NCBI RefSeq assembly: GCF_014850955.1
Contig: NZ_JACXSS010000001.1
Span: 1,426,001-1,490,000, forward strand
Direction of reading: 5' to 3'
Source of the DNA: Methylomonas albis
Lineage (GTDB): Bacteria > Pseudomonadota > Gammaproteobacteria > Methylococcales > Methylomonadaceae
DNA: 64,000 nucleotides
Below, piece after piece: positions 21,345-46,721 of the stretch (positions within the stretch are counted from its first letter, which is position 1; each line of letters begins with the position of its first letter). The position numbers were made by a program, and so were the translations under genes. The notes beneath the pieces are model-generated. The model was not told the DNA's origin and did not search any database. It saw only the letters and a list, made by a program, of their open reading frames with translations.

Positions 21345-22550
21345 ATGGGTGCTTTAGAGCTGCATCAACAACAAAAAACCGAGCGCTTAACCGACGCATT
21401 TCGGATTTTTAACGAACTTTCCGAAAATCTCGCTCATTCGTACCAAGGTTTGGAAGAGCAGGTAGCCAAGCTTAATCGCGAGTTGCAGGCAGCGCGTAGC
21501 GAGCGCTTGAACACGCTGATCGAGAAGGAAAAGCTTGCCAGCCGCTTGCAACAAATTTTGGCAGCCTTGCCGGCGGCGGTCATTGTGCTGAATGCGCAGG
21601 GTTCGATCATCGATTGCAATATCCATTCCGTGGATTTTTTGGGCGAACCTTTACTGGGTCAATTGTGGTCGAGTGTGGCAGCGCGCAGTCTGCAACCGGT
21701 CTTCGAATCGCCGCACGAGCGCCAGCTGCGAGACGGTCGTAAAGTCAATATCACCCACAATTCATTGGGTAATAGTGCCGAACAAATCATTCTGTTGTCG
21801 GACGTCAGTGAATTGCGTTCCTTGCAGGATACGCTGGCCCAGCATAAGCAGTTGAGCGCGATGGGGGAAATGGTGGCCGGTCTGGCGCATCAGGTCCGCA
21901 CGCCGCTGGCAACTGCGATTCTGTACGCTTCGCAAATGAGTAAGCCCACGGTAGCCGAGGAAAAACGCCAACAGTTCTCTGAGAAAATTTTAGAACGTCT
22001 GCATTACCTGGAGCGCCAAGTTAACGACATGCTGATTTTCGCCAAACAGGGCCGAATGGCGATGCAAAGTGTTTCGCTGCAACGGCTTCTGGCGCATCTT
22101 GCGGAAGCGGCAGACAGTTTTATCGGCGAATTTAGTATCCAAAACCGAATCAGTACCGATCAATTGTTGGGCAATGAAGACGCGCTGCGCGGGGCGTTGT
22201 TGAATTTAATTAATAACGCTGCCGAGGCTGGTGCCGGCAAAATTTCTTTAACTGTCCAACGTGGGGATTCGGGTGGTATCAACATCGTGGTTACCGATGA
22301 CGGCCCCGGTATAACTCAAGAACAACAGAGCAAATTATTCGAACCGTTCTACACCACCAAGTCCAATGGCACAGGTTTGGGGCTGGCGGTAGTCGACAGC
22401 GTGGCGCGTGCCCATGGCGGCGGCGTCAAGTGTCATTCGACGCCAGGACAAGGCACGAGGTTTACCCTGAGTTTGCCTTGTATCAGCCAATATACCCTGG
22501 GATTGTCCGCCGGTATTGCCAAAATGGAGCAAGATTATGAAACAGTATGA
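21345..22550 (+). CDS. flrB: Flagellar sensor histidine kinase FlrB/FleS
   Basis: A 401-residue cytoplasmic histidine kinase without membrane segments. A coiled-coil N-terminus is followed by a PAS domain (about residues 75-155), then the dimerisation/H-box GLAHQVRTPLA with the phospho-accepting His at about H182. The ATP-binding domain has NLINNAAEAG (N box), DDGPGI (G1) and GTGLGLAVV (G2). The family phosphorylates FlrC/FleR in the flagellar regulatory cascade. The ATG at 21345 follows the sigma-54 promoter candidate; upstream codons fall inside it. The end overlaps the start of flrC by 14 bases. Confidence 0.93.
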   Translation: MGALELHQQQKTERLTDAFRIFNELSENLAHSYQGLEEQVAKLNRELQAARSERLNTLIEKEKLASRLQQILAALPAAVIVLNAQGSIIDCNIHSVDFLGEPLLGQLWSSVAARSLQPVFESPHERQLRDGRKVNITHNSLGNSAEQIILLSDVSELRSLQDTLAQHKQLSAMGEMVAGLAHQVRTPLATAILYASQMSKPTVAEEKRQQFSEKILERLHYLERQVNDMLIFAKQGRMAMQSVSLQRLLAHLAEAADSFIGEFSIQNRISTDQLLGNEDALRGALLNLINNAAEAGAGKISLTVQRGDSGGINIVVTDDGPGITQEQQSKLFEPFYTTKSNGTGLGLAVVDSVARAHGGGVKCHSTPGQGTRFTLSLPCISQYTLGLSAGIAKMEQDYETV

Positions 22551-23919
22551 TGTGCTAATCGTCGAAGACGACATGGCTTTATGCGAAGCGCTATGCGATA
22601 CCCTGGAAATTGAAGGCTATCGGGTCGTCTCCGCTAAAAACGGTATAGAAGCGCTGAGTCAGTTGGCAAAATATCCCGTCAGGCTGGTGGTCAGTGATGT
22701 ACAAATGCCGGTGATGGATGGCTTTCAGCTGTTGAAGAATATTCAGCAAAAATTCGAGCAGTTGCCGGTGTTGCTGATGACGGCTTACGGCACAATCCCC
22801 AAAGCGGTGGAAGCCATGCAGTCCGGCGCGGCCGACTATCTGATTAAACCGTTTGAGGCGGTCATGTTAGTGGATAAGGTGGCGTCATTGATTCCGCGGC
22901 AACCGCCAGTCGTTAACGAGCGAGTAGTGGCTGACGAGCGGATGAAAAAACTGTACGCATTGGCCAGCAAAGTGGCCAAAACCGATGTAACCATGTTGCT
23001 GGAAGGCGAGAGCGGTACCGGTAAAGAAGTGCTGGCCCGTTATGTTCACCGGAACTCGCATTATCATGCGGGGCCGTTCGAGGCCATCAATTGCGCGGCG
23101 ATTCCGGAAAACATGCTGGAAGCAATGTTGTTCGGCTACGAGAAAGGCGCATTTACCGGCGCCATTCAATCGGCGCCCGGCAAATTCGAGCAGGCACAAG
23201 GCGGCACCTTATTGCTGGACGAGATTTCCGAGATGGATATATCGCTGCAAGCTAAACTGCTACGGGTGTTGCAGGAAAAAGAAGTCGAGCGCTTGGGTAG
23301 CCATCGCAAGATAGCGCTGAACGTCAGAATTTTGGCGACTACCAATCGTAAATTAAAAGAATATGTGCAGGATGGCCGGTTTCGCGAAGATCTGTATTTT
23401 CGATTAAGTGTATTTCCGCTCAGAATTCCGCCGCTTCGGGAGCGGGTCGGCGATATTTTGCCGTTAGCACTGGAATTATTGAACAAGCACAGCCCGGCCG
23501 GGAAAGCCGCTTGCAGCTTCGACGATGCGGCATTGGCCAAATTGTCTCAATACAGCTGGCCGGGTAATGTCAGAGAGTTGGAAAATGTGGTCCAGCGCGC
23601 GTTGATTCTGCAAAGTCGGGGTCAAATCGGTGCCGACGACCTGATATTTGAAGAAGATATGCTGGTTTTGCCGAGTTTGCCCATCGCTGTGCAAAGTCTT
23701 GCCGTAGAATCTTGGCAAGACTACAGCGACAGTAGCCGTGCCGAGCTCGCCAGCTTGGGTGATGGTGTGCGTTCCGCCGAAGAAAAAATTATATTGCAAA
23801 TGTTGCACGACGTTAGCGGCAGCCGGAAAACCACAGCCGCCAAGCTTGGCATCAGTCCGCGCACTTTGCGTTACAAAATCGCGCGGATGAAGGAAGCGGG
23901 TGTGAGGGTGCCAGGTTAA
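22537..23919 (+). CDS. flrC: Sigma-54 response regulator FlrC/FleR
   Basis: A 460-residue NtrC-class activator. The receiver domain has acidic E10/D11/D12 and the phosphorylated D54 in VVSDVQMPVMDG. The AAA+ domain has Walker A GESGTGKE, the sigma-54 contact loop GAFTGA, and GGTLLLDEISEM. A Fis-type helix-turn-helix ends the protein (TTAAKLGISPRTLRYKI). It should activate the class III flagellar genes, including the fliE operon directly downstream. The ATG at 22537 has GGAG 9 bases upstream. Confidence 0.95.
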   Translation: MKQYDVLIVEDDMALCEALCDTLEIEGYRVVSAKNGIEALSQLAKYPVRLVVSDVQMPVMDGFQLLKNIQQKFEQLPVLLMTAYGTIPKAVEAMQSGAADYLIKPFEAVMLVDKVASLIPRQPPVVNERVVADERMKKLYALASKVAKTDVTMLLEGESGTGKEVLARYVHRNSHYHAGPFEAINCAAIPENMLEAMLFGYEKGAFTGAIQSAPGKFEQAQGGTLLLDEISEMDISLQAKLLRVLQEKEVERLGSHRKIALNVRILATTNRKLKEYVQDGRFREDLYFRLSVFPLRIPPLRERVGDILPLALELLNKHSPAGKAACSFDDAALAKLSQYSWPGNVRELENVVQRALILQSRGQIGADDLIFEEDMLVLPSLPIAVQSLAVESWQDYSDSSRAELASLGDGVRSAEEKIILQMLHDVSGSRKTTAAKLGISPRTLRYKIARMKEAGVRVPG

Positions 23920-34134: not shown

Positions 34135-34147
34135 ACTGCCAATCAGG

Positions 34148-34186
34148 GATATGCCGCAAAGCGCTGCGGCATATCACGTATTTTTT
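34148..34186 (+). terminator. Rho-independent terminator after hldD
   Basis: An 11-base perfect stem GATATGCCGCA / TGCGGCATATC (34148-34158, 34165-34175) with a 6-base loop, followed shortly by TTTTTT at 34181. It lies 14 bases after the hldD stop. Confidence 0.8.
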
Positions 34187-34304
34187 CCACCCGCCATTCC
34201 CGGTATGCGCCGGCGAAAAAGCTTAATCGCCTGATTTCTATTTGCTTGTGCGCTTGGGCGCGTATCGTGCTGGTAACATCCGGACAATAACGCAGCGATG
34301 GCAC

Positions 34305-34859
34305 ATGTCCGACCAAGTATTTTCCGCAAAATCTTCCGACAGCGGCGCGCAAGCCGAACCAAGCGCAGAACAAATTGCGGCATTCATCGATAAACATCGT
34401 GATGAACTTAGTCGTTTTATCGTGCGTAAACTGGGTTCGGAGGATATGTCCGCGGACATACTACAGGATGCTTATTTGCGACTGAGCCGCCAGCAAACCC
34501 AGGAAACCATCGATAATCCGCGGGCTTTCGTGTTTCGGGTTGTCGGCAATCTGGTGATCGACTACCAACGCCTTAGTGCCAATCGGCTCAAGCAGGATGT
34601 CGACGACGACACCTTCAACGCCGTTCCCGAACAGTCGCCCGGTCCCGAGCAGCGTTATCAGCAGAACCAGCGCTTGCAAGCCATTCATCAGGCCTTGGCG
34701 GAATTGCCCGAAGACTGCCGTCTGGCTTTTTATTGGAACCGGGTCGAAGGTCTTAGCCATACCGAAGTTGCGGCCCGCCTGCGCATTTCGGACAGCATGG
34801 TCGCCAAGCATTTGGCGCGGGCCATGCGGCATTGCCGGGACCGGCTCAAGCAACATTAA
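34305..34859 (+). CDS. ECF RNA polymerase sigma factor, FecI type
   Basis: A 184-residue group 4 sigma factor. Sigma region 2 covers IVRKLGSEDMSADILQDAYLRL and DNPRAFVFRVVGNLVIDYQR; region 4 covers LAELPEDCRLAFYWNRVEGLSHTEVAARLRISDSMVAKHL. The linear arrangement sigma factor - FecR - TonB receptor marks an iron-responsive cell-surface signalling system, so its target promoter is probably upstream of the receptor gene. The ATG at 34305 is the best start; the frame is open 21 codons upstream. Confidence 0.92.
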   Translation: MSDQVFSAKSSDSGAQAEPSAEQIAAFIDKHRDELSRFIVRKLGSEDMSADILQDAYLRLSRQQTQETIDNPRAFVFRVVGNLVIDYQRLSANRLKQDVDDDTFNAVPEQSPGPEQRYQQNQRLQAIHQALAELPEDCRLAFYWNRVEGLSHTEVAARLRISDSMVAKHLARAMRHCRDRLKQH

Positions 34860-34938
34860 GGCACATGCCGGCCGCCCGGAAAATATCAGCAAGAACCGCC
34901 GCGTCATCCGTCATAATAGTTTCAACCGTCCACACCTT

Positions 34939-35910
34939 ATGCCGATGAGTAACGCACCCGTTTCCGAAATCACCACCTTGTCCGATCAGGCCATTGATTG
35001 GGTGATACGGCTGCGCGCCGGAAACGCCGGCGCGCAGGAGCGGCGCGCGGCCGCCGAATGGCAAAATCGCAGCCCCTCGCACCGTCGCGCCTTTGCCGAG
35101 GCCGAACAACTATGGCTGGACATGGGCGAGGTCTGGTCGGTAACGGAGCTGCCGAGACCGACGCAAGCCATGGGCCGCCGATTTAGCCGGCCGGTCTGGC
35201 GCGGCTTGGCAGCGGCCGCTCTGGCTTTGGCTCTGGTTTTGCCGTTTTCCGGCCTTGGCGACCGCTGGTTCAGCGACTATTACACCGCTGTCGGCGAACA
35301 AAAAACCGTGACTTTGGCCGACGGCAGCCAAGTGCTGTTGAATACCGATACCGCATTGACGGTTGCCTATTCGGATACCGGCCGCAAACTGACATTGAAA
35401 CACGGCCAGGCCTTATTCAAGGTCGCCGCCGACCGCAACCGGCCGTTTGAGGTAGCCACCGATACCGCAGTGGTCAAAGCGTTGGGGACGGTCTTTGAAG
35501 TGCTGCAGCAAGACCACGCCGCCCGCATCACGGTGCAGGAACACGCGGTTGGCGTAAAAGGTCTGCACGCTCCGGATTACCCGCCCGACGCCCGCATTCA
35601 AGAAGGCCAACAAGCGGTTTACAGTGCCGCCAACGGCTTGCAAGCCGCAGTGGCCGCCGATCCGCAGCAAAGCGCCGCCTGGCAGCGCGGTAAACTGGTC
35701 TTTAAAAATCAAGCCCTGGCCGACGTGGTTGCGGAACTGGACCGCTATTTCCCCGGAAAGATCGTTATCAGCGACGCCAAGCTGGCGGCGCTAAGGGTCA
35801 GCGGCGTCTTCCCCCTGGCGGACCGCGCTGCCACACTGGCGATGCTGCAACAAATCCTCGCGGTAAAAATCAGTCAAATCACGCCGTGGTTGACCGTGTT
35901 GCACGGTTAG
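34939..35910 (+). CDS. FecR-type anti-sigma regulator
   Basis: A 323-residue membrane-anchored regulator. The N-terminal cytosolic domain carries the DUF4880 pattern (AIDWVIRLRAG ... FAEAEQLWLDMG); a membrane segment follows at about residues 85-105 (GLAAAALALALVLPFSGL). The periplasmic FecR domain has TVTLADGSQVLLNTDTALTV and ADRNRPFEVATDTAVVKALGTVFEV, and a secretin-like end contains FPLADRAATLAMLQQIL. It passes the receptor signal to the sigma factor. I start at the ATG at 34939; the open frame before it overlaps the sigma gene in another frame and is not coding. Confidence 0.9.
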   Translation: MPMSNAPVSEITTLSDQAIDWVIRLRAGNAGAQERRAAAEWQNRSPSHRRAFAEAEQLWLDMGEVWSVTELPRPTQAMGRRFSRPVWRGLAAAALALALVLPFSGLGDRWFSDYYTAVGEQKTVTLADGSQVLLNTDTALTVAYSDTGRKLTLKHGQALFKVAADRNRPFEVATDTAVVKALGTVFEVLQQDHAARITVQEHAVGVKGLHAPDYPPDARIQEGQQAVYSAANGLQAAVAADPQQSAAWQRGKLVFKNQALADVVAELDRYFPGKIVISDAKLAALRVSGVFPLADRAATLAMLQQILAVKISQITPWLTVLHG

Positions 35911-36005: not shown

Positions 36006-38420
36006 ATGAAAAAATCACTCGATACCGGCAGCGTCCATCCCGGCCGGGCCCGTATGTTTAAACCCAAGCCTATTGCCGCATTATTACCGCTCGGCACTAT
36101 CAGCCTGACCGCGATGGCCGGCGATGCTGCGCAAGCCTTTAACATCCCGGCGCAAGCCCTGGACAGCGCCCTCACCGAACTCGCCTACCAGACCAACCTG
36201 CGCCTGCTCTATCCGGCGGAACTGGTCGGCAAACTCCACTCCAGCCCGGTGTCCGGCCAATACACCCCGGAGCAGGCCATGCAGCGGATGTTGCAGGATT
36301 CCGGCTTGACTGTGCGAAAAACGGCGGATGGTACGTTTACGGTGGAACCAGCAGCGAATGCCGAGCCGCGCGCGGCGGCAACGATGCCGGCGGTGACGGT
36401 GATGGGGAAGGCTGTTTATGATTCGACTGATCCTTATAATCAAGATTACAACTTGACCAACACTAAAACTGCAACCAAAACGGATACCCCTATTATGGAG
36501 ACGCCGTTTTCGGTGCAAGTGGTTTCCAAACAGGTCATCGAAGATCAGCAAGTAATACGTTTGAAAGACGCGCTGAGAAATATCAGTGGTGTAGTACAAG
36601 GTGGAGATGCGACGGGTTCCGACCATTTTAATATCCGTGGTTTCGATACGACGATGGTTTATCGGGACGGATCGCCCTTTCCGATCGCAGCAGGCATACC
36701 AACCAACCGCCGTGAAACCGCCAATATTGAGAGCATAGACGTGTTAAAAGGGCCGGCTTCACTGTTGTATGGGCGCACCGAACCGGGTGGCATAGTCAAC
36801 GTCACGACGAAGCAGCCATTGTCCCATGCCTATTACTTGTTGCAGCAGCAATTCGGTTCTTACGACTTATACCGCACCACCGTAGACGCCACAGGGCCGA
36901 TAACATCGGATAACTCACTACTCTATCGATTCAATTTGGCTTACCAAGACAACAATAGTTTTCGAGACTATGTCGGTAATGAACGTGTGTTTGTAGCGCC
37001 TGTTCTAACTTGGAATATCGATGCCAAAACCAAAGCAACATTTGAATTGGAATATCTTCATGACGAAAGCATCAACGATCCAGGTGTTCCGGGATTAGGT
37101 AATCGTCCAGCACCGGCGCCCCGAAATTCGTTTTTGAGCGAACCCAATGCCAAGATCACTACGGATAAGGTACTGGTCGGATTAAACTGGTCTCACCAGT
37201 TCAATGACGATTGGGAAATCTCACAGAGGTTTAATGCGGAATTCACCCAATACGACCAAATAGGCAGCTTTTTTTTCGGTCAGGCGTCTACGTCTGGAAA
37301 TGTTGACAGAGGCTTTTTTAAAACCGAATCTCCCTGGGAAAAATACTACACCAATGTCAATTTGACCGGTAAATTCAATACCGGCGTGGTAAAACACAAA
37401 TTATTAATGGGCGGCGATTACTTTCGAGAGGATCTTAATGTTAAGGAAGGTTGCTGCCCAAGTCCCAGCACACCTATCAACGTTTTCAATCCGATCCCCA
37501 CCGGCTTGCCGAATTTCGACGTGGCACTGGTTGTAAAAACCAGTTCGGATTGGTTCGGCCTATACCTGCAGGATCAGTTGGAGTTACCGCATAATTTCTT
37601 TGCGCTTGGCGGCATGCGTTACGACAATGCCCAGGGTAATGACGAATTAAACGCCGGGGCCGTCACTATTGACGAGGATAGAGTTAGCCCGAGAGGCGGA
37701 CTATTGTGGCGGCCGATTCCGGAGTTATCGCTCTATGGCAGTTACACAGAGAATTTCGGCGCGAATAACGGAGCGAACCGAAACGGGCAATTACTAAAAC
37801 CCGAAACCGCCCAGCAATGGGAGACCGGTGTAAAAACCGAATGGTGGGATGGCCGTTTTTCCGCTTCCTTGGCCTATTTTGAACTAACTAAACAAAATAT
37901 TCGAGTGACCGATCCAACTAATTTCACCTTGTCGAAATCAATAGGCGAAGCCAAGAGCCAAGGTATTGAAATAGACGCAAAAGGCGAAGTTATTCCTGGA
38001 TGGAATATTATCGGCTCTTATGCGCATATTCCGGTGGCCAATATCACTAAGGATTTTGACTCCAGCGGCGGAAACGGTAACCAAGGGAATAGGCTATACA
38101 ACTCGGCACGTAATTCAGGCAGTCTTTGGAATGTTTACGAATTCCAGGATGGCGATATGCAAGGCTTAAAGTTTGGTGCCGGAGCGGTAGTCGTTGGCAA
38201 GCGGCAAGCGGATAACGAAAATCTTGTGCAAATGCCAGGTTACGTTACGCTGAATCTAATGACGAGTTATCAACAGAGAATAGGGAATTCAAAGTTTACC
38301 GTCCAATTCAACGTCGATAATTTGTTGGATAAATCCTATTTCGCGTCGGCCAATGGTTTTAACCAACATTTCTTTGGTACGCCTAGAACCTTTTTGGGTT
38401 CGGTTCGGTTGGAGTATTAA
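36006..38420 (+). CDS. TonB-dependent siderophore receptor with signalling (STN) domain
   Basis: An 804-residue outer-membrane transducer. A signal peptide (residues about 20-45) precedes an STN domain (FNIPAQALDSALTELAYQTNLRLLYPAELV ... VRKTADGTFTVEP), which is the part that talks to FecR. Next come the plug (PAVTVMGK TonB-box area, SVQVVSKQVIEDQQ, NISGVVQGG, FNIRGFDT, VLKGPASLLYGRTEPGGIVNVTTKQP) and the beta-barrel. The final residues SVRLEY end in an aromatic residue, as needed for barrel insertion. The closest known types are ferric siderophore receptors such as FpvA/FhuE. Which siderophore is bound cannot be told. It is the third gene of the sigma-FecR-receptor set, about 95 bases after fecR. 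Confidence 0.93.
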   Translation: MKKSLDTGSVHPGRARMFKPKPIAALLPLGTISLTAMAGDAAQAFNIPAQALDSALTELAYQTNLRLLYPAELVGKLHSSPVSGQYTPEQAMQRMLQDSGLTVRKTADGTFTVEPAANAEPRAAATMPAVTVMGKAVYDSTDPYNQDYNLTNTKTATKTDTPIMETPFSVQVVSKQVIEDQQVIRLKDALRNISGVVQGGDATGSDHFNIRGFDTTMVYRDGSPFPIAAGIPTNRRETANIESIDVLKGPASLLYGRTEPGGIVNVTTKQPLSHAYYLLQQQFGSYDLYRTTVDATGPITSDNSLLYRFNLAYQDNNSFRDYVGNERVFVAPVLTWNIDAKTKATFELEYLHDESINDPGVPGLGNRPAPAPRNSFLSEPNAKITTDKVLVGLNWSHQFNDDWEISQRFNAEFTQYDQIGSFFFGQASTSGNVDRGFFKTESPWEKYYTNVNLTGKFNTGVVKHKLLMGGDYFREDLNVKEGCCPSPSTPINVFNPIPTGLPNFDVALVVKTSSDWFGLYLQDQLELPHNFFALGGMRYDNAQGNDELNAGAVTIDEDRVSPRGGLLWRPIPELSLYGSYTENFGANNGANRNGQLLKPETAQQWETGVKTEWWDGRFSASLAYFELTKQNIRVTDPTNFTLSKSIGEAKSQGIEIDAKGEVIPGWNIIGSYAHIPVANITKDFDSSGGNGNQGNRLYNSARNSGSLWNVYEFQDGDMQGLKFGAGAVVVGKRQADNENLVQMPGYVTLNLMTSYQQRIGNSKFTVQFNVDNLLDKSYFASANGFNQHFFGTPRTFLGSVRLEY

Positions 38421-41832: not shown

Positions 41833-42076
41833 ATTTGTGGATGTTAACGCCCACTTAGAGAAGGAGTTGGTGGGACTCCGCCAATTTTACCTCGCTTCTA
41901 AGTAGCTGAGATCAGACTGCTTGGTTCTGCGACAAAATGTATGAGCGGATTTATTCGTTAGTATTCGGCGAAGACATTGGCTGAATAATTTGAGCTTGGC
42001 TAACAAGCTTTTGAATAAGCTGTGAGAAATAGGCGATCCCCCGTTGGTGGGTGAGGCATATAACCTGTTTTATCTG

Positions 42077-42127: not shown

Positions 42128-42143
42128 CGGCATTAATGTTGCT
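42128..42143 (+). promoter_or_regulatory. Sigma-54 promoter candidate for the first VPLPA-type gene
   Basis: CGGCATTAATGTTGCT: GG-N10-GC spacing with TTGCT at -12 and GGCA at -24; only the first T of the consensus is lost. The predicted leader is about 85 bases. Confidence 0.65.
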
Positions 42144-42237
42144 TATCATTGGTTGCAGCTATGAGGTGGCGCTTGCAATATGGCACTTCAATCCAATGCT
42201 GTGTATCTGTAACACTATATTCAATCAGGAAGGAACA

Positions 42238-43017
42238 ATGACGCAATTTAAAAAACTGGCTATCGCAGGCGCTATCTCAGCGGCAATGATGGGCGCGCCT
42301 TCAGCGGAAGCTTCAGTGGTTTACAACCTCAACACTGGTCTCGCCAACGGCGATGCGGTAGGTCCATGGTCCGATGGCACAAACACCAGTCCAACGGGTT
42401 ATACCGGCCATTTGCCAGCAACTTGGCTGGATAATATCCAAACCAACAATCAAACGGACACTGTTTCCACTGCTGGTCTGCTAGCCGCAGCTCCCTCCAC
42501 CACTCTCAAGGTTGAGTCTCTGTCCAACCGATGGAATCCTGCCAATAGCTGGGGTAATGCGCTGGATTTTGGCCTAATCACCTTAAGCTCCGTAAGTAAT
42601 TTAACCATTACGGTTGCGGCTGATGCGTCCCTTAGCTCAAATTTTAAACCAGGTTTTACCTTGTTTAGCGGCTGGGATACGTCTGCTACTAGCAATAAGC
42701 ATGGCTCATGGAACGTAGCCTTACCCGCAGTGCCGGTTAATCCTAGAGGCACAACCGGTTTAACTTATCTAGGCCAAGCATCCTCTGCTGTAGGTGGCGG
42801 CACAGCTACCTATACTTTTACCAATCTGGCAGCAGGCAATTACAGCTTGTGGATTGGTGGTGCAGGCCTAGGTACTTCAACCACTGGTGGTCAAACCTAT
42901 GTCGCCACTCTTAGTACTTCGCCGGTGCCCGTTCCCGGTGCGGTTTGGCTATTCGGTAGTGCTATGGCTGGCCTGATCGGCTTCGGTGGTCGTCGTAAAG
43001 CGGCGGTCACTGCTTAA
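42238..43017 (+). CDS. VPLPA-CTERM-like surface protein 1 (exosortase substrate)
   Basis: A 259-residue exported protein. The signal peptide spans about residues 1-26 (cleavage after AEA). The body is rich in Thr, Ser, Asn and Gly with very few charges, and contains a GFTLFSGWD...HGSWN motif shared with the two paralogues downstream. The C-terminal sorting signal is VPVPGAVWLFGSAMAGLIGF followed by GGRRKA: a VPxP motif, a hydrophobic helix and a basic tail, as in VPLPA-CTERM proteins cut by a dedicated exosortase. The ATG at 42238 has AGGAAGGA. No exosortase gene is nearby. The body function is unknown. Confidence 0.87.
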   Translation: MTQFKKLAIAGAISAAMMGAPSAEASVVYNLNTGLANGDAVGPWSDGTNTSPTGYTGHLPATWLDNIQTNNQTDTVSTAGLLAAAPSTTLKVESLSNRWNPANSWGNALDFGLITLSSVSNLTITVAADASLSSNFKPGFTLFSGWDTSATSNKHGSWNVALPAVPVNPRGTTGLTYLGQASSAVGGGTATYTFTNLAAGNYSLWIGGAGLGTSTTGGQTYVATLSTSPVPVPGAVWLFGSAMAGLIGFGGRRKAAVTA

Positions 43018-43018
43018 G

Positions 43019-43140
43019 GTCGGAAATGCCGCTGCAAGTCTGAATGTTTGTAGCGCAAGGAATTGTAGTATCAGGATTAATCAGGAAGATTCGCCACGGA
43101 TGGCGTATTTGTAGATTGGTCTGCTAAGGACTTGGCGGGC
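43019..43140 (+). repeat. Post-gene conserved block, copy 1 of 3
   Basis: The block runs through TTTGTAGCGCAAGGAAT and CAGGAAGATTCGCCACGGATGGCG and recurs after each of the three VPLPA-type genes (also 44776-44890 and 46416-46540). The central 24 bases are identical in copies 1 and 2 and differ by one base in copy 3. It may be a processing or termination element, or simply duplicated DNA. Confidence 0.7.
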
Positions 43141-43420
43141 GTACCCCCCCCAAGGCTTTAGCCGAATTCGGTTGGATTAACATCGTATTGGGTAATCTCG
43201 AGACCCGCTTCGGCGGCGCTTGCCGTGCCTTCGACTGTGCCAAGTATGGCATTCGCTACTTCGCGGCATTTGTGTATCGCTTTGACCGTGTTTTCACCTG
43301 GACGCTTTAGCCTTGCGTTTACACGTTACCGCAGTCAATATCGCCCCGCCAAATCGGCTGCCCGTCAAGCTGAAGGAGCTTTCTAACCGGAAGGTAGGTT
43401 TATGAAGGGCATCAGTCTGC
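43141..43420 (+). pseudogene. Decayed IS1595-type transposase C-terminus, copy 1
   Basis: From about 43152 the frame reads KALAEFGWINIVLGNLETRF, then AFDCAKYGIRYFAAFVYRFD, before a stop at about 43310. The pattern [P/A]EFxWINTVLGNLKT ... KYxxRYLAEFxYRFNRRF is the C-terminal end of ISXO2/IS1595-family transposases. The upstream part is missing, a C7 run breaks the frame at 43144-43151, and the final RRFDL... segment has decayed. It is not functional. Confidence 0.72.
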
Positions 43421-43520
43421 CAGTTGAGCACGGGTGAACAGGTGGTCAGGGGAATCAAAATTATGTTATTTCACTTATTTTTTCTAAGCTGAATCACGAG
43501 TTTTTCCTGAGAGTCAAGAA

Positions 43521-43533
43521 TAAGTAAACTCTA
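43521..43533. promoter_or_regulatory. Possible activator element before VPLPA-type gene 2
   Basis: TAAGTAAACTCTA lies about 47 bases upstream of the -12 GC and resembles the palindrome at 42077-42091 (TAAAGTTAAACTTTA), with two single-base deletions and one change. Confidence 0.3.
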
Positions 43534-43561
43534 ATTGCTTGTAATTAATACGTTTTATAGA

Positions 43562-43577
43562 TGGCATAAGGATTGCA
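43562..43577 (+). promoter_or_regulatory. Sigma-54 promoter candidate for VPLPA-type gene 2
   Basis: TGGCATAAGGATTGCA is nearly the full consensus TGGCAC-N5-TTGCW: a single mismatch at the sixth base. It is the best sigma-54 match in the window, with a predicted leader of about 90 bases. Confidence 0.75.
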
Positions 43578-43677
43578 TTTTGCAGGCAAGCGCCTGTCAG
43601 TGATTGCTTACAAGATTGTTGTTGAGTCCTGGGTCTAAGGCGCTTTCTCCCCTAATTTAAGACGTAAGGTAAAACGT

Positions 43678-44775
43678 ATGATCAAAACAAAACTAGCAAA
43701 AGCGATTTCGCTGGCGGTTGCAGGTATGGCTCTATCAGCTACTGCGTCGGCGACCGTCACAACCATGTACAACGCGACGACTGGTGTCGACGGATCTGTC
43801 GCTGCCGGCACGACGAATCCGAATGCGTATCAGTCGGTTGATGCAAATAACAATCCGATTACGATTCGGGACCCCTCATATCTCGGCCAGACGGATGGTT
43901 GGAGCAACGGTGCCGGTGAGCAGACATTAGGGGGCGCTACGACGCCAGCGGTATCCGGCTGGACCAATCCGACCACAGGCGTCACCTATGCCGCCGGAGC
44001 ACGAGTACCGGTTGGTTACTATGCTACTCAAAATTGGGTGGGAACCGGTAGTCCAAGTACGGCAGCGTTTGGTTATGACGGTGCGCACATGAACTGGGGT
44101 ATCAACATAACCGGCGGTAACGGCGGTACCGGTACCATTTCGGCGGCGGATTCCTTTGCAAACTACGGCATTTATGCGGATCTCGATACCGCTAAAGGTG
44201 CTTGGGCAGCTACCAATACGGGCGGTGCGCAAGCTGGTTGGCGCCACGACCTAGACGTCGGATTGTTCAAGTCCGATACTTCCGGTACTGTGACTCTTAC
44301 TGCGCAAGGCATTCTGAATCCTAATGCCCAATTTGGCTTCACTGTATTTCATGGCATGGATCACACCACCGGCTATATGCACCACGTTTCCTGGAATGCC
44401 AACAACAATACCACTGGCATAACTGATCTCTCCAATCCTTACATCGGCGGTACAAACCCGCTTAACAATGGCACAAACTCCGGAACCGGCTTAACAACGG
44501 CCGAAATTGTTGCTGCCAGCGTTGGGGTTCTGAGTACGACAGACCCTTTCACCGGCACTACCAACATGAACACCATTACGTTTAATGCTGTCGCCGGCGA
44601 ATATTACACCATCTTCCTGGGTGGCTATATGGGCGGAGCTTGGCAAACAACGACTGACGGCTATTCTTTGACTGTCTCTCAAGTGCCAGTCCCTGGCGCA
44701 GTCTGGCTGTTCGGCAGTGCAATGGCTGGCCTGATCGGTTTTGGCGGTCGTCGTAAAGCTGCAGTAGCTGTCTAA
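43678..44775 (+). CDS. VPLPA-CTERM-like surface protein 2 (exosortase substrate)
   Basis: A 365-residue exported protein. The signal peptide spans about residues 1-25 (AVAGMALSATASA). The body is Thr/Gly/Asn-rich. Segments shared with protein 3 include FGYDGAHMNWGI, YGIYADLDTAKGAW, GWRHDLDVGLFKSD, and FGFTVFHGMD ... HHVSWN. The sorting signal VPVPGAVWLFGSAMAGLIGF and GGRRKA is the same as in proteins 1 and 3. Compared with protein 3 it has extra Gly/Thr-rich material near the N-terminus (about residues 40-115). The start is the ATG at 43678 after TAAGGT. Domain function is unknown. Confidence 0.87.
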   Translation: MIKTKLAKAISLAVAGMALSATASATVTTMYNATTGVDGSVAAGTTNPNAYQSVDANNNPITIRDPSYLGQTDGWSNGAGEQTLGGATTPAVSGWTNPTTGVTYAAGARVPVGYYATQNWVGTGSPSTAAFGYDGAHMNWGINITGGNGGTGTISAADSFANYGIYADLDTAKGAWAATNTGGAQAGWRHDLDVGLFKSDTSGTVTLTAQGILNPNAQFGFTVFHGMDHTTGYMHHVSWNANNNTTGITDLSNPYIGGTNPLNNGTNSGTGLTTAEIVAASVGVLSTTDPFTGTTNMNTITFNAVAGEYYTIFLGGYMGGAWQTTTDGYSLTVSQVPVPGAVWLFGSAMAGLIGFGGRRKAAVAV

Positions 44776-44890
44776 AGAAGGCTGTTAGTTGTAAAACTGA
44801 TGGTTTGTAGCGCAAGGAATATAGTTTTAGGATTAGTCAGGAAGATTCGCCACGGATGGCGTTTTATTGATAAGTCTGCTCAAGACTAGG
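44776..44890 (+). repeat. Post-gene conserved block, copy 2 of 3
   Basis: Contains GCGCAAGGAAT and the shared CAGGAAGATTCGCCACGGAT segment; the first 35 bases have drifted from copies 1 and 3. Confidence 0.68.
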
Positions 44891-44929
44891 CGTAGCTAGA
44901 GCATGCAATCAGCGCCAACAGCGGCGGGG

Positions 44930-45220
44930 TGTCACTGTCAGTCTATCGTCGTTGGCGGGCGCACACCCAAGGCTTTAGCCGAATTCGGTTGGATCAACAC
45001 CGCTTCGGATAATCTCAAAACCAGCTTCGACTTTGTCAAGTACGACATTCGCTACTTGGCTGCATTTGTGTATCGGTTTAACCGGGCTTCCACTTGGCAG
45101 CTTGACCTATGCGTTTATTCCTTACCACCGTCAATATCGGGCCCCGCCAATTGAGCTGGCTTCGTGAAGTTGAAGGAGCATTCAAATCAGGGTGTGGGCC
45201 TATGCAGGGCATCAGCCTGC
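44930..45220 (+). pseudogene. Decayed IS1595-type transposase C-terminus, copy 2
   Basis: Reads VVGGRTPKALAEFGWINTAS, then LKTSFDFVKYDIRYLAAFVY and RFNRASTWQLDL. The transposase continues in another frame from about 45109 as FLTTVNIGPRQLSWLREVEGA, so a frameshift lies in between. It matches the IS1595-family ending (GGRKPKxLPEFxWINTxLGNLKT ... YRFNRRFDL ... RLLVAAVNxxPRPxRWLxxAE). Compared with copy 1 it lacks 21 bases (7 codons, FGGACRA in copy 1). No terminal inverted repeats or target duplication were found. Confidence 0.75.
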
Positions 45221-45320
45221 CAGCAGAGTACGGGTCGACAGATGGTCAGGGGAATCGTAATTATGTTATTTCACTTATTTTTTCTGAGCTAAATCACCGG
45301 TTTTTACTGGGTGCCTAGAA

Positions 45321-45333
45321 TAAGTAAACTCTA
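45321..45333. promoter_or_regulatory. Possible activator element before VPLPA-type gene 3
   Basis: TAAGTAAACTCTA, identical to the element at 43521-43533 and at the same distance from the sigma-54 promoter candidate. Confidence 0.3.
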
Positions 45334-45361
45334 ATTGTTTGTAATTTATACGTTTTATAAG

Positions 45362-45377
45362 TGGCATAAGGATTGCC
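45362..45377 (+). promoter_or_regulatory. Sigma-54 promoter candidate for VPLPA-type gene 3
   Basis: TGGCATAAGGATTGCC, the same core as before gene 2 with the last base changed. The predicted leader is about 92 bases. Confidence 0.72.
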
Positions 45378-45479
45378 TTATCGAGACAGGCGTCTGTCGG
45401 TTATGGCTTACAGGTTTGTTTGCCGTGTATGTAGCCTAAGGTGCTTTCTCCCCTAACTTTAGATGTAAGGTAAAAACGT

Positions 45480-46415
45480 ATGATCAACACAAAATTGGCT
45501 AAGGCTGTTTCTTTAGCTGTTGCCGGCGTGGCGCTGTCAGCGGGTTCGACCAGCGCATTGGCGTCAACCACGATGTATAACACTTTCAATGCATTTGGCT
45601 CTGCTCAAGCAACCGATGCTAATTCGACTGGCACACAACCCACTACAGATGGTTGGACACATTTATATGATGGGGCTGATGTTAATACTGTAGCCACTGG
45701 TGTGGAAAGTAAAGGGCATTTGGGTACGGTTGTGCCTTGGGTAGGCACTACAGGCGGCGCTCAACCATTTGGGTACACTGGGTCTGCTCCTCTAAACTGG
45801 GCAATTCAACTGGGCTCTGCTTCCGATAGCGGCGTAATTTCCCAGGCTGATTCGACCAAGTACGGCATCTTTGCGGATATTGATACTGCCAAGGGTGCAT
45901 GGAGCGACGCTTCTCTCAGCGGCGCTTCCGGTTGGAGGCATAATATCGATATCGGTTTGTTCAAGGCGGATGTTGCTACCGACGTGAAATTAAGCGCTGC
46001 TGGTTTGACCCAAGCAGGCACCAACTTCGGTTTTACCATTTTTAAAGGATTGGATACCTTGCAGGGCGATTATGGGCATCATGGGAGTTGGAACAACGGT
46101 AACAATTCAGCAGGTGTAACGTCTACCTCATTGTTTTCTGCTGCGACTTCGTTTACCACTGCGGATATCGTTGCCTACAGTGTGGGTGGAGCAACGCCTA
46201 GCAATATCAACGATATTATCTTCCATGCGGATGCCGGCCAAGTTTATACCATCGTTTTGGGTGGCTATCGCAATGGCGCCTGGGGTAATACTGGTGACGG
46301 CTATGTCTTAAACGTTCAAGCGGTTCCAGTGCCCGGCGCTGTTTGGTTGTTCGGTAGTGCAATGGCTGGCCTGATCGGCTTTGGCGGTCGTCGTAAAGCG
46401 GCGGTAACCGCTTAA
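45480..46415 (+). CDS. VPLPA-CTERM-like surface protein 3 (exosortase substrate)
   Basis: A 311-residue exported protein and the closest relative of protein 2. The signal peptide spans about residues 1-29 (cleavage near ALA-STT). It shares LNWAIQ, YGIFADIDTAKGAW, GWRHNIDIGLFKAD, and FGFTIFKGLD ... HHGSWNN with protein 2 and ends in VPVPGAVWLFGSAMAGLIGF plus GGRRKAAVTA. The C-terminus is nearly identical to that of protein 1 at the DNA level as well, which hints at recent conversion or strong constraint. Very few cysteines and charges, in line with a surface-displayed, possibly glycosylated protein. Confidence 0.87.
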   Translation: MINTKLAKAVSLAVAGVALSAGSTSALASTTMYNTFNAFGSAQATDANSTGTQPTTDGWTHLYDGADVNTVATGVESKGHLGTVVPWVGTTGGAQPFGYTGSAPLNWAIQLGSASDSGVISQADSTKYGIFADIDTAKGAWSDASLSGASGWRHNIDIGLFKADVATDVKLSAAGLTQAGTNFGFTIFKGLDTLQGDYGHHGSWNNGNNSAGVTSTSLFSAATSFTTADIVAYSVGGATPSNINDIIFHADAGQVYTIVLGGYRNGAWGNTGDGYVLNVQAVPVPGAVWLFGSAMAGLIGFGGRRKAAVTA

Positions 46416-46540
46416 AGTCGGAAAGGTTGCTGCAAATCTGAGGTTTTGTAGTGTAAGGGATTGTAGGTTCAGGATTAATCAGGAAGATTCGCCACGGACG
46501 GCGTCTTTGTAGATAGGTCTGCCAAGGACTTGGTGGACCT
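46416..46540 (+). repeat. Post-gene conserved block, copy 3 of 3
   Basis: Close to copy 1 throughout (AAGTCGGAAA, GGATTAATCAGGAAGATTCG, GTAGATAGGTCTGC). It marks the right end of the duplicated array. Confidence 0.7.
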
Positions 46541-46721
46541 ATTTCATTCAGTAGGCTTGACACCACCATGTCTCGGGCTACTGCTGTAATAGCCATTAAA
46601 TTCTAAGCATACCCTTTTGCTATACTCTCATTATTTTTGAGGGGGGATGTTCGTGCTCAATGTCGCAATGATGGTTGCAAAACGCTCTGTGTTCTTGCTG
46701 CCCGACTGGTTTTAAAAGCAG
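46416..46721. other. 306-base region between VPLPA-type gene 3 and waaA
   Basis: The first 125 bases are copy 3 of the post-gene block; after AAGGACTTGGTGGACC the similarity to the other copies ends. A TATACT box with a weak -35 lies near 46621 and could drive waaA. No transposase remains are seen here. Confidence 0.6.

Follow-up and report, generated by a model that had tools for sequence, protein, structure and literature searches.

The 64,000-nucleotide (nt) stretch of the Methylomonas albis genome dealt with here (the window; positions 1,426,001 to 1,490,000 of contig NZ_JACXSS010000001.1) has, in tandem, three genes for putative surface proteins, numbered 1, 2 and 3 in Table 1, and upstream of each lies a candidate sigma-54 promoter preceded by a copy of a 16-base-pair (bp) dyad, TGYGKCATATGMCRCA, that is shared with operons for extracytoplasmic function (ECF) sigma factors of the FecI type. 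The gene starts, 42238, 43678 and 45480, were picked by a script and by eye for signal-peptide-like N-termini. The VPVPGAVWLFGSAMAGLIGFGGRRK tails of the three proteins are near-identical and, judged by their residues, resemble VPLPA/PEP-CTERM tails. Against TIGR03370 those of genes 2 and 3 score 10.4–10.6 bits, under the curated cut-off of 25.35 (gene 1 is not listed), and against PF07589 the tails score 15.3–16 bits, under its cut-off of 20.7, and by neither cut-off do the proteins fall within the VPLPA-CTERM, or exosortase D substrate, class. The 5.4 Mb genome (G000) encodes the exosortase XrtD (TIGR04152, 594.5 bits against a cut-off of 400), as well as XrtA, and surface sorting of the tails would fall to XrtD.

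Table 1. Features of the window that bear on the three surface-protein genes and on the FecI-type operon
Feature	Position	Strand	Remarks
Gene 1	42238..43017	+	259-amino-acid (aa) surface protein, VPVPGAVWLFGS tail; start chosen is preceded by AGGAAGG, longest open reading frame (ORF) ATG at 42136 not taken
Gene 2	43678..44775	+	365-aa surface protein, tail as in gene 1
Gene 3	45480..46415	+	311-aa surface protein, paralogue of gene 2
Gene 1 sigma-54 -24/-12 site CGGCATTAATGTTGC	42128..42142	+	read directly; weaker than the other two
Gene 2 sigma-54 site TGGCATAAGGATTGC	43562..43576	+	read directly; kept in place in orthologs
Gene 3 sigma-54 site TGGCATAAGGATTGC	45362..45376	+	read directly; identical to that of gene 2, duplicate of gene 2 upstream
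Gene 1 putative enhancer dyad TGAGGCATATAACCTG	42052..42067		12.1 bits; centre 68 bp before -24
Gene 2 putative enhancer dyad TATGTTATTTCACTTA	43462..43477		12.0 bits; centre 92 bp before -24
Gene 3 putative enhancer dyad TATGTTATTTCACTTA	45262..45277		12.0 bits; distance as for gene 2
Gene 2 degenerate second dyad TAAGCTGAATCACGAG	43485..43500		centre about 69 bp before -24; below threshold, placed by eye
Gene 3 degenerate second dyad TGAGCTAAATCACCGG	45285..45300		below threshold, placed by eye
Duplicated block with gene 2 promoter and putative enhancer	43363..43620		258 nt, 82% identical; other copy 45163-45420
Paired dyads upstream of FecI gene	34143..34180		12.9 and 20.1 bits; same motif as genes 1–3
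FecI-type ECF sigma factor gene	34305..34859	+	Pfam Sigma70_r2/r4_2
FecR-holding ORF	34576..35910	+	actual start internal to the ORF; DUF4880 begins at residue 137, FecR at 234
TonB-dependent receptor with STN domain	36006..38420	+	Pfam

What sets these -24/-12 elements apart from the matches that any long DNA offers? Number does not, since at two or fewer mismatches the window contains 87 copies of TGGCAC-N5-TTGC where 85 are expected, and as the count equals expectation a motif match alone carries no meaning. Place, strand and conservation do. Within 300 bp upstream of the 68 own-genome genes with a VPxP-tail match (taken at E up to 10, some of them weak), a site of 5–6 out of 6 is found in the sense orientation at 9 and in the antisense at 2 (one-sided Fisher p 0.03). 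Homologs of gene 3, sought in 61 genomes and found in 24, came to 82 rows, 76 from other genomes; for the 68 of those 76 that were used (in 22 other genomes; the 8 omitted were short matches confined to the tail and, in one case, the second piece of a gene) a good sigma-54 site is present in sense in 38/68 and in antisense in 0/68. On alignment of eight close orthologs with the two window copies, the element, 115–118 bp before the start, is among the best conserved stretches. In the window itself each GG-N10-GC is a -24/-12 element in sense, ahead of the start of its gene, the gene 1 site departing from consensus at its first base, and as the upstreams of genes 2 and 3 are a duplicated block their two sites count as one observation. 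As far as sequence comparison reaches, it is confirmed that the sites exceed chance by place, strand and conservation, not by count, and control of genes 1–3 by sigma-54 is supported; a single RpoN is encoded (one TIGR02395 match, 484.5 bits against a cut-off of 277.35). The first-pass annotation of this DNA had located the elements at 42128, 43562 and 45362 and given leaders of about 85–92 bases: direct reading of the sequence finds them there, and with +1 set 12 nt past the C of the GC the leaders compute to 84, 90 and 92 nt for genes 1, 2 and 3.

The alignment of orthologous upstreams has a further conserved block, 60–100 bp before -24, and a scan of the own genome with it gave 17 matches, against 6 for its reverse, and led to genes for FecI-type ECF sigma factors. 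For 23 own FecR loci, an upstream sigma-54 score of at least 5 is found in sense at 11 and in antisense at 1. Two of these (L282 and L283), not being FecI operons, were excluded from the motif set, and from the remaining 21 upstreams a palindromic de novo motif search yielded the dyad TGYGKCATATGMCRCA, at 16 bits, on which, of 40 random-seed runs, the 9 best converge (12 of the 40 being listed); 20/21 of these upstreams, which are the training data, score at least 9 bits. At one of the FecI loci, L248/L249 (G000:C1:107176-107224), the intergenic region between a divergent FecI gene and an ORF that by eye is TonB receptor-like has dyad-like sites in both orientations. The scores of the dyads at genes 1–3 are to be set against shuffles, 99% of which lie below 8.9 bits, and the degenerate second dyads of genes 2 and 3 are in register with a conserved GTGAGCTAAATCAC of the orthologs. 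Six dyads of at least 12 bits occur in the window, against 1–3 in five shuffles, and five of the six lie in front of the FecI gene and genes 1–3; the sixth (57459) is within a dihydroxy-acid dehydratase gene, and four further dyads of 9–12 bits are elsewhere. The 82 kb of the own activator and exosortase loci have one of at least 12 bits. Between putative enhancer and promoter, at 43518-43561 and 45318-45361, is an AT-rich block, GAATAAGTAAACTCTAATTG(T/C)TTGTAATT(A/T)ATACGTTTTATA, conserved almost like the promoter in the 10 aligned upstreams and possibly the site of a bending protein.

The bearing of the dyad on genes of the VPLPA type can be judged in the genus at large, as no VPLPA gene was in the training of its matrix. 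At the test threshold of 9 bits it is present in 30 of the 38 genus VPLPA homologs that have a sigma-54 site (3.2% of shuffles; 0/38 reversed), and with upstreams de-duplicated and the homologs and own set pooled it is in 25/36 with a sigma-54 site versus 16/83 without (p 2e-7). From dyad centre to -24 the distance is mostly 57–115 bp for VPLPA upstreams and 63–184 bp for FecI upstreams. Dyad pairs are mostly 19–23 or 29–32 bp apart, i.e., often two or three helical turns, counts that are inflated by related sequences and that have as exceptions one spacing of 14 and three beyond 150. A composite of half-dyad and sigma-54 element gave 31 matches in 24 of 37 genus genomes versus 3 for the reversed pattern, and these precede 17 VP-tail genes, 3 TonB receptor-like ORFs (one, in G004, checked by Pfam; similar ORFs are in G010 and G033), 2 ECF sigma genes and 9 others or nothing clear. 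Composites precede ECF sigma genes in G016, G036 and Candidatus Methylobacter oryzae. Of 18 composite loci scored for dyads, drawn from this search and from a scan of all genomes, 14 have two, one has one and three have none; distances in other genomes, of which the composite pattern itself constrains one per locus, are 92/69, 105/82, 107/85, 95/74, 79/57, 93/71 and 92/72 bp. That scan of all genomes, run with a composite pattern, gave 52 stretches, most of them by title scattered and chance-like, and 14 of the 52 were examined.

Several genes outside the named classes came up along with these promoters. Two secreted-looking proteins of Methylococcaceae metagenome-assembled genomes, with no Pfam match (L341:7-939, minus strand; L320:5869-6726, plus strand), have genes preceded by dyads in a pair and by a sigma-54 site of consensus sequence, and a GHGC motif after an AHT start is reminiscent of copper-binding proteins. 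In the own genome a composite of half-dyad and consensus sigma-54 site (G000:C1:2786480-2786576) precedes the gene of a secreted-looking 193-aa protein (L234:2237-2818, minus strand; G000:C1:2785736-2786317). Around genes 1–3 themselves, repeated noncoding stretches 3′ of each (43017-43360, 44775-45160 and 46415-46541; repeat families D2, D4, D5, D7 and D8) are apparently decayed. The idea of a decayed transposase between the genes was dropped, the ORF 44903-45154 being without a Pfam match, and no known RNA or riboswitch in Rfam matched around the leaders near gathering score (best E 0.89).

How strict is the tie between dyad and sigma-54? A number of results weigh against a joint regulon of surface proteins and FecI operons. 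The dyad is also in 15/30 homologs without a good sigma-54 site, and the link is therefore not strict; for de-duplicated homologs alone the association is modest (22/28 versus 12/24, one-sided p 0.03). Among the 68 VPxP genes of the own genome the promoter is confined to 9, of which 5 lack the dyad, and 4 of the 59 without a good site have it. Among true FecI upstreams only 11/21 have a good sigma-54 site, and that of the window FecI gene (L273) is not among them, its best GG-N10-GC, at 34256-34270, being 3 of 6, with the consequence that a sigma-54 promoter for that gene is doubtful. Two of three hand-set seeds led the motif search to a lower-scoring motif, gTGtGaTATAtCaCAc. Autoregulation was not seen in the own activator loci, where there are only two dyads of at least 11 bits, both inside ORFs. 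Could the dyad, then, be the site of a regulator that does not work through sigma-54, whether a CRP/FNR-like activator or repressor or a metal-responsive repressor, overlaying sigma-54 promoters that belong to another activator? Its outer TGYG/CRCA halves resemble a CRP-family site, which likewise counts against the joint regulon, and the dyads that lack a good sigma-54 neighbour are as such a regulator would have them. However, the distances to -24, the pair spacing of two or three turns and the co-conservation with -24/-12 fit an enhancer better, and there is no other scoring enhancer-like dyad there in a search that covered only the PrsR-type box and TGYGKCATATGMCRCA classes; an overlaid regulator of that sort seems unlikely to us, if still to be reckoned with.

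One candidate for activator was PrsR, which with PrsK is known from exosortase systems. In the available passages of Haft 2006 (PMC1569441) the PrsR motif is 17 nt ending TTTACA, at a mean of 62.8 nt (32–92) before the sigma-54 element, and in those of Xia 2023 (PMC9850573) a PEP-CTERM gene of Aquincola is RpoN-dependent. The first-pass annotation, noting that the window lacks both PrsK and PrsR, had thought a shared cell-surface regulon of genes 1–3 under that pair plausible. Both are indeed elsewhere, PrsR (TIGR02915, 700 bits against a cut-off of 502.6, the sole protein over it) at G000:C1:3988164 and preceded by PrsK (TIGR02916, 639.4 bits against 300). The genus does have promoters of the expected kind, as a TTTACA and sigma-54 composite gave 23 matches in 16/37 genomes versus 1 for the reversed pattern, and PEP/VPLP-tail genes follow 14 of the 16 loci examined among the 23, one of the 14, in G018, matching the dyad class too. 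Would phosphorylated PrsR then bind upstream of genes 1–3 and activate sigma-54 RNA polymerase there? Scored with a matrix of consensus TGTCGGTAAnnTTTACA, built from only 7 distinct genus sites, the genes give 7.8, 6.3 and 8.0 bits, and with 95% of shuffles below 9.5 that is background; the best, sub-threshold box of gene 1, at 45 bp, includes a TGTAAA half-site, and by these scores none of the three has the 17-nt motif ending TTTACA expected 32–92 nt before the sigma-54 element. Conversely, the dyad scores no more than 2.1 at each of six promoters of PrsR type. PrsR as activator of genes 1–3 was rejected on this site evidence, and with the dyad architecture also occurring in genomes without a PrsR match we hold it improbable. 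What is left of the earlier proposal is sigma-54 control of cell-surface genes, to which the conserved -24/-12 elements, RpoN and XrtD lend weight; the part that named PrsR as regulator is not supported, a different dyad being present instead. If this is right, the sites suggest that sigma-54 control of exosortase-type surface proteins splits into two site classes in the genus. As for the genes using sigma-70 promoters with the GG-N10-GC sites accidental, the pattern frequency in the window is just that of shuffled DNA, but the homolog strand contrast and the conservation in place make this reading very improbable.

If not PrsR, which activator? In the own genome 19 proteins match by way of the sigma-54 activator core, one of which, C1:1183859, seems by eye to be without GAFTGA. 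The one activator of the window (22516-23919), well under the PrsR cut-off, immediately precedes fliF together with a kinase gene, and its role is probably flagellar rather than the regulation of genes 1–3. PrsR is in 26/37 genomes, and in the other 11 there is no match at E 1e-150 (33 candidates being scored in the larger genomes). Five of the 11 are at least 90% complete; seven carry composites with scoring dyads, and three of these, G032, G004 and G018, are at least 90% complete. G032, listed as 100% complete and with no PrsR match among the 33 of 76 candidates scored, has a dyad and sigma-54 site before a VPLP-tail gene. G004, likewise with no PrsR match, has one promoter of dyad and sigma-54 architecture and five proteins of sigma-54-activator type, four being orthologs of the own NtrC (C1:1254173, so named by TIGR01818), C1:1215659 (two-component), C1:2597909 and C1:3772178. 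The fifth is the ortholog, 92% identical, of C1:1183859, for which NtrX is the best model (481.5 of 600 bits), and it is an unlikely activator because GAFTGA is by eye lacking. Four are likely candidates and one is unlikely, with none singled out. That the C1:1215659 ortholog of G004 sits after a cation-efflux gene is a thin hint of metals. Elsewhere, close to an orphan sigma-54 activator, a 75-aa ORF that by eye is TatA-like has a consensus sigma-54 site (L304:3148-3162) roughly 100 bp before it.

The explanation we favour, and think rather probable, is a second sigma-54 regulon that joins TonB/FecI systems and surface proteins via the TGYGKCATATGMCRCA dyad and an activator other than PrsR. 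Each of genes 1–3 would be transcribed from its own sigma-54 promoter, and an NtrC-family enhancer-binding protein, by binding one or two of the 16-bp dyads upstream of -24, would switch them on. The same protein would serve the FecI–FecR–TonB receptor operons of the cell, and XrtD-sorted surface proteins and TonB-linked uptake systems would in that case be made under the same condition, presumably a nutrient signal. More tentatively, and with the chances put a little below even, one sigma-54 enhancer-binding protein may command about 20 FecI-type operons as well as the exosortase-sorted surface proteins, a sigma-54 to ECF sigma cascade remodelling the outer surface when a nutrient, perhaps a metal, is scarce. 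If the favoured explanation is right, one of the two site classes of sigma-54 control of exosortase-type surface proteins is tied to TonB/FecI uptake systems, deletion of one activator gene would show what the surface proteins are made for, and a layer of control would be revealed above many ECF sigma factors. In the open-access literature, as judged by titles and opening abstract lines among the matches listed and with subscription papers mostly outside its scope, there is no report of a link between dyad, FecI and surface proteins; the available parts of PMC5874918 and PMC11072679 deal with exosortase-system genes in Methylomonas LW13, and no promoter data for such genes were met in them.

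How does all this compare with what is known? In common with PrsK/PrsR–RpoN control, as set out in the available portions of Haft 2006 (PMC1569441) and Xia 2023 (PMC9850573), there are sigma-54 promoters in front of genes of the PEP-CTERM type, a further element upstream of them, and an exosortase and PrsKR in the genome; unlike it, the window element is TGYGKCATATGMCRCA rather than the 17-nt TTTACA-ending box, is found where PrsR was not, and is common to FecI operons. With FecI–FecR–TonB cell-surface signalling operons what is shared is the dyad itself, present before nearly all of those in this genome, its training set, whereas the window genes encode surface proteins and not a sigma factor, anti-sigma factor or receptor. 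FecI genes are usually described as being under Fur, and the FecI operons here differ from that description in about half of them having good sigma-54 sites. Finally, though the dyad differs in sequence from the NtrC site, TGCAC-N7-GTGCA, it is like NtrC-type tandem enhancers in being one of a class of 16–17-bp dyads, often paired two or three turns apart and tens of bases upstream of -24.

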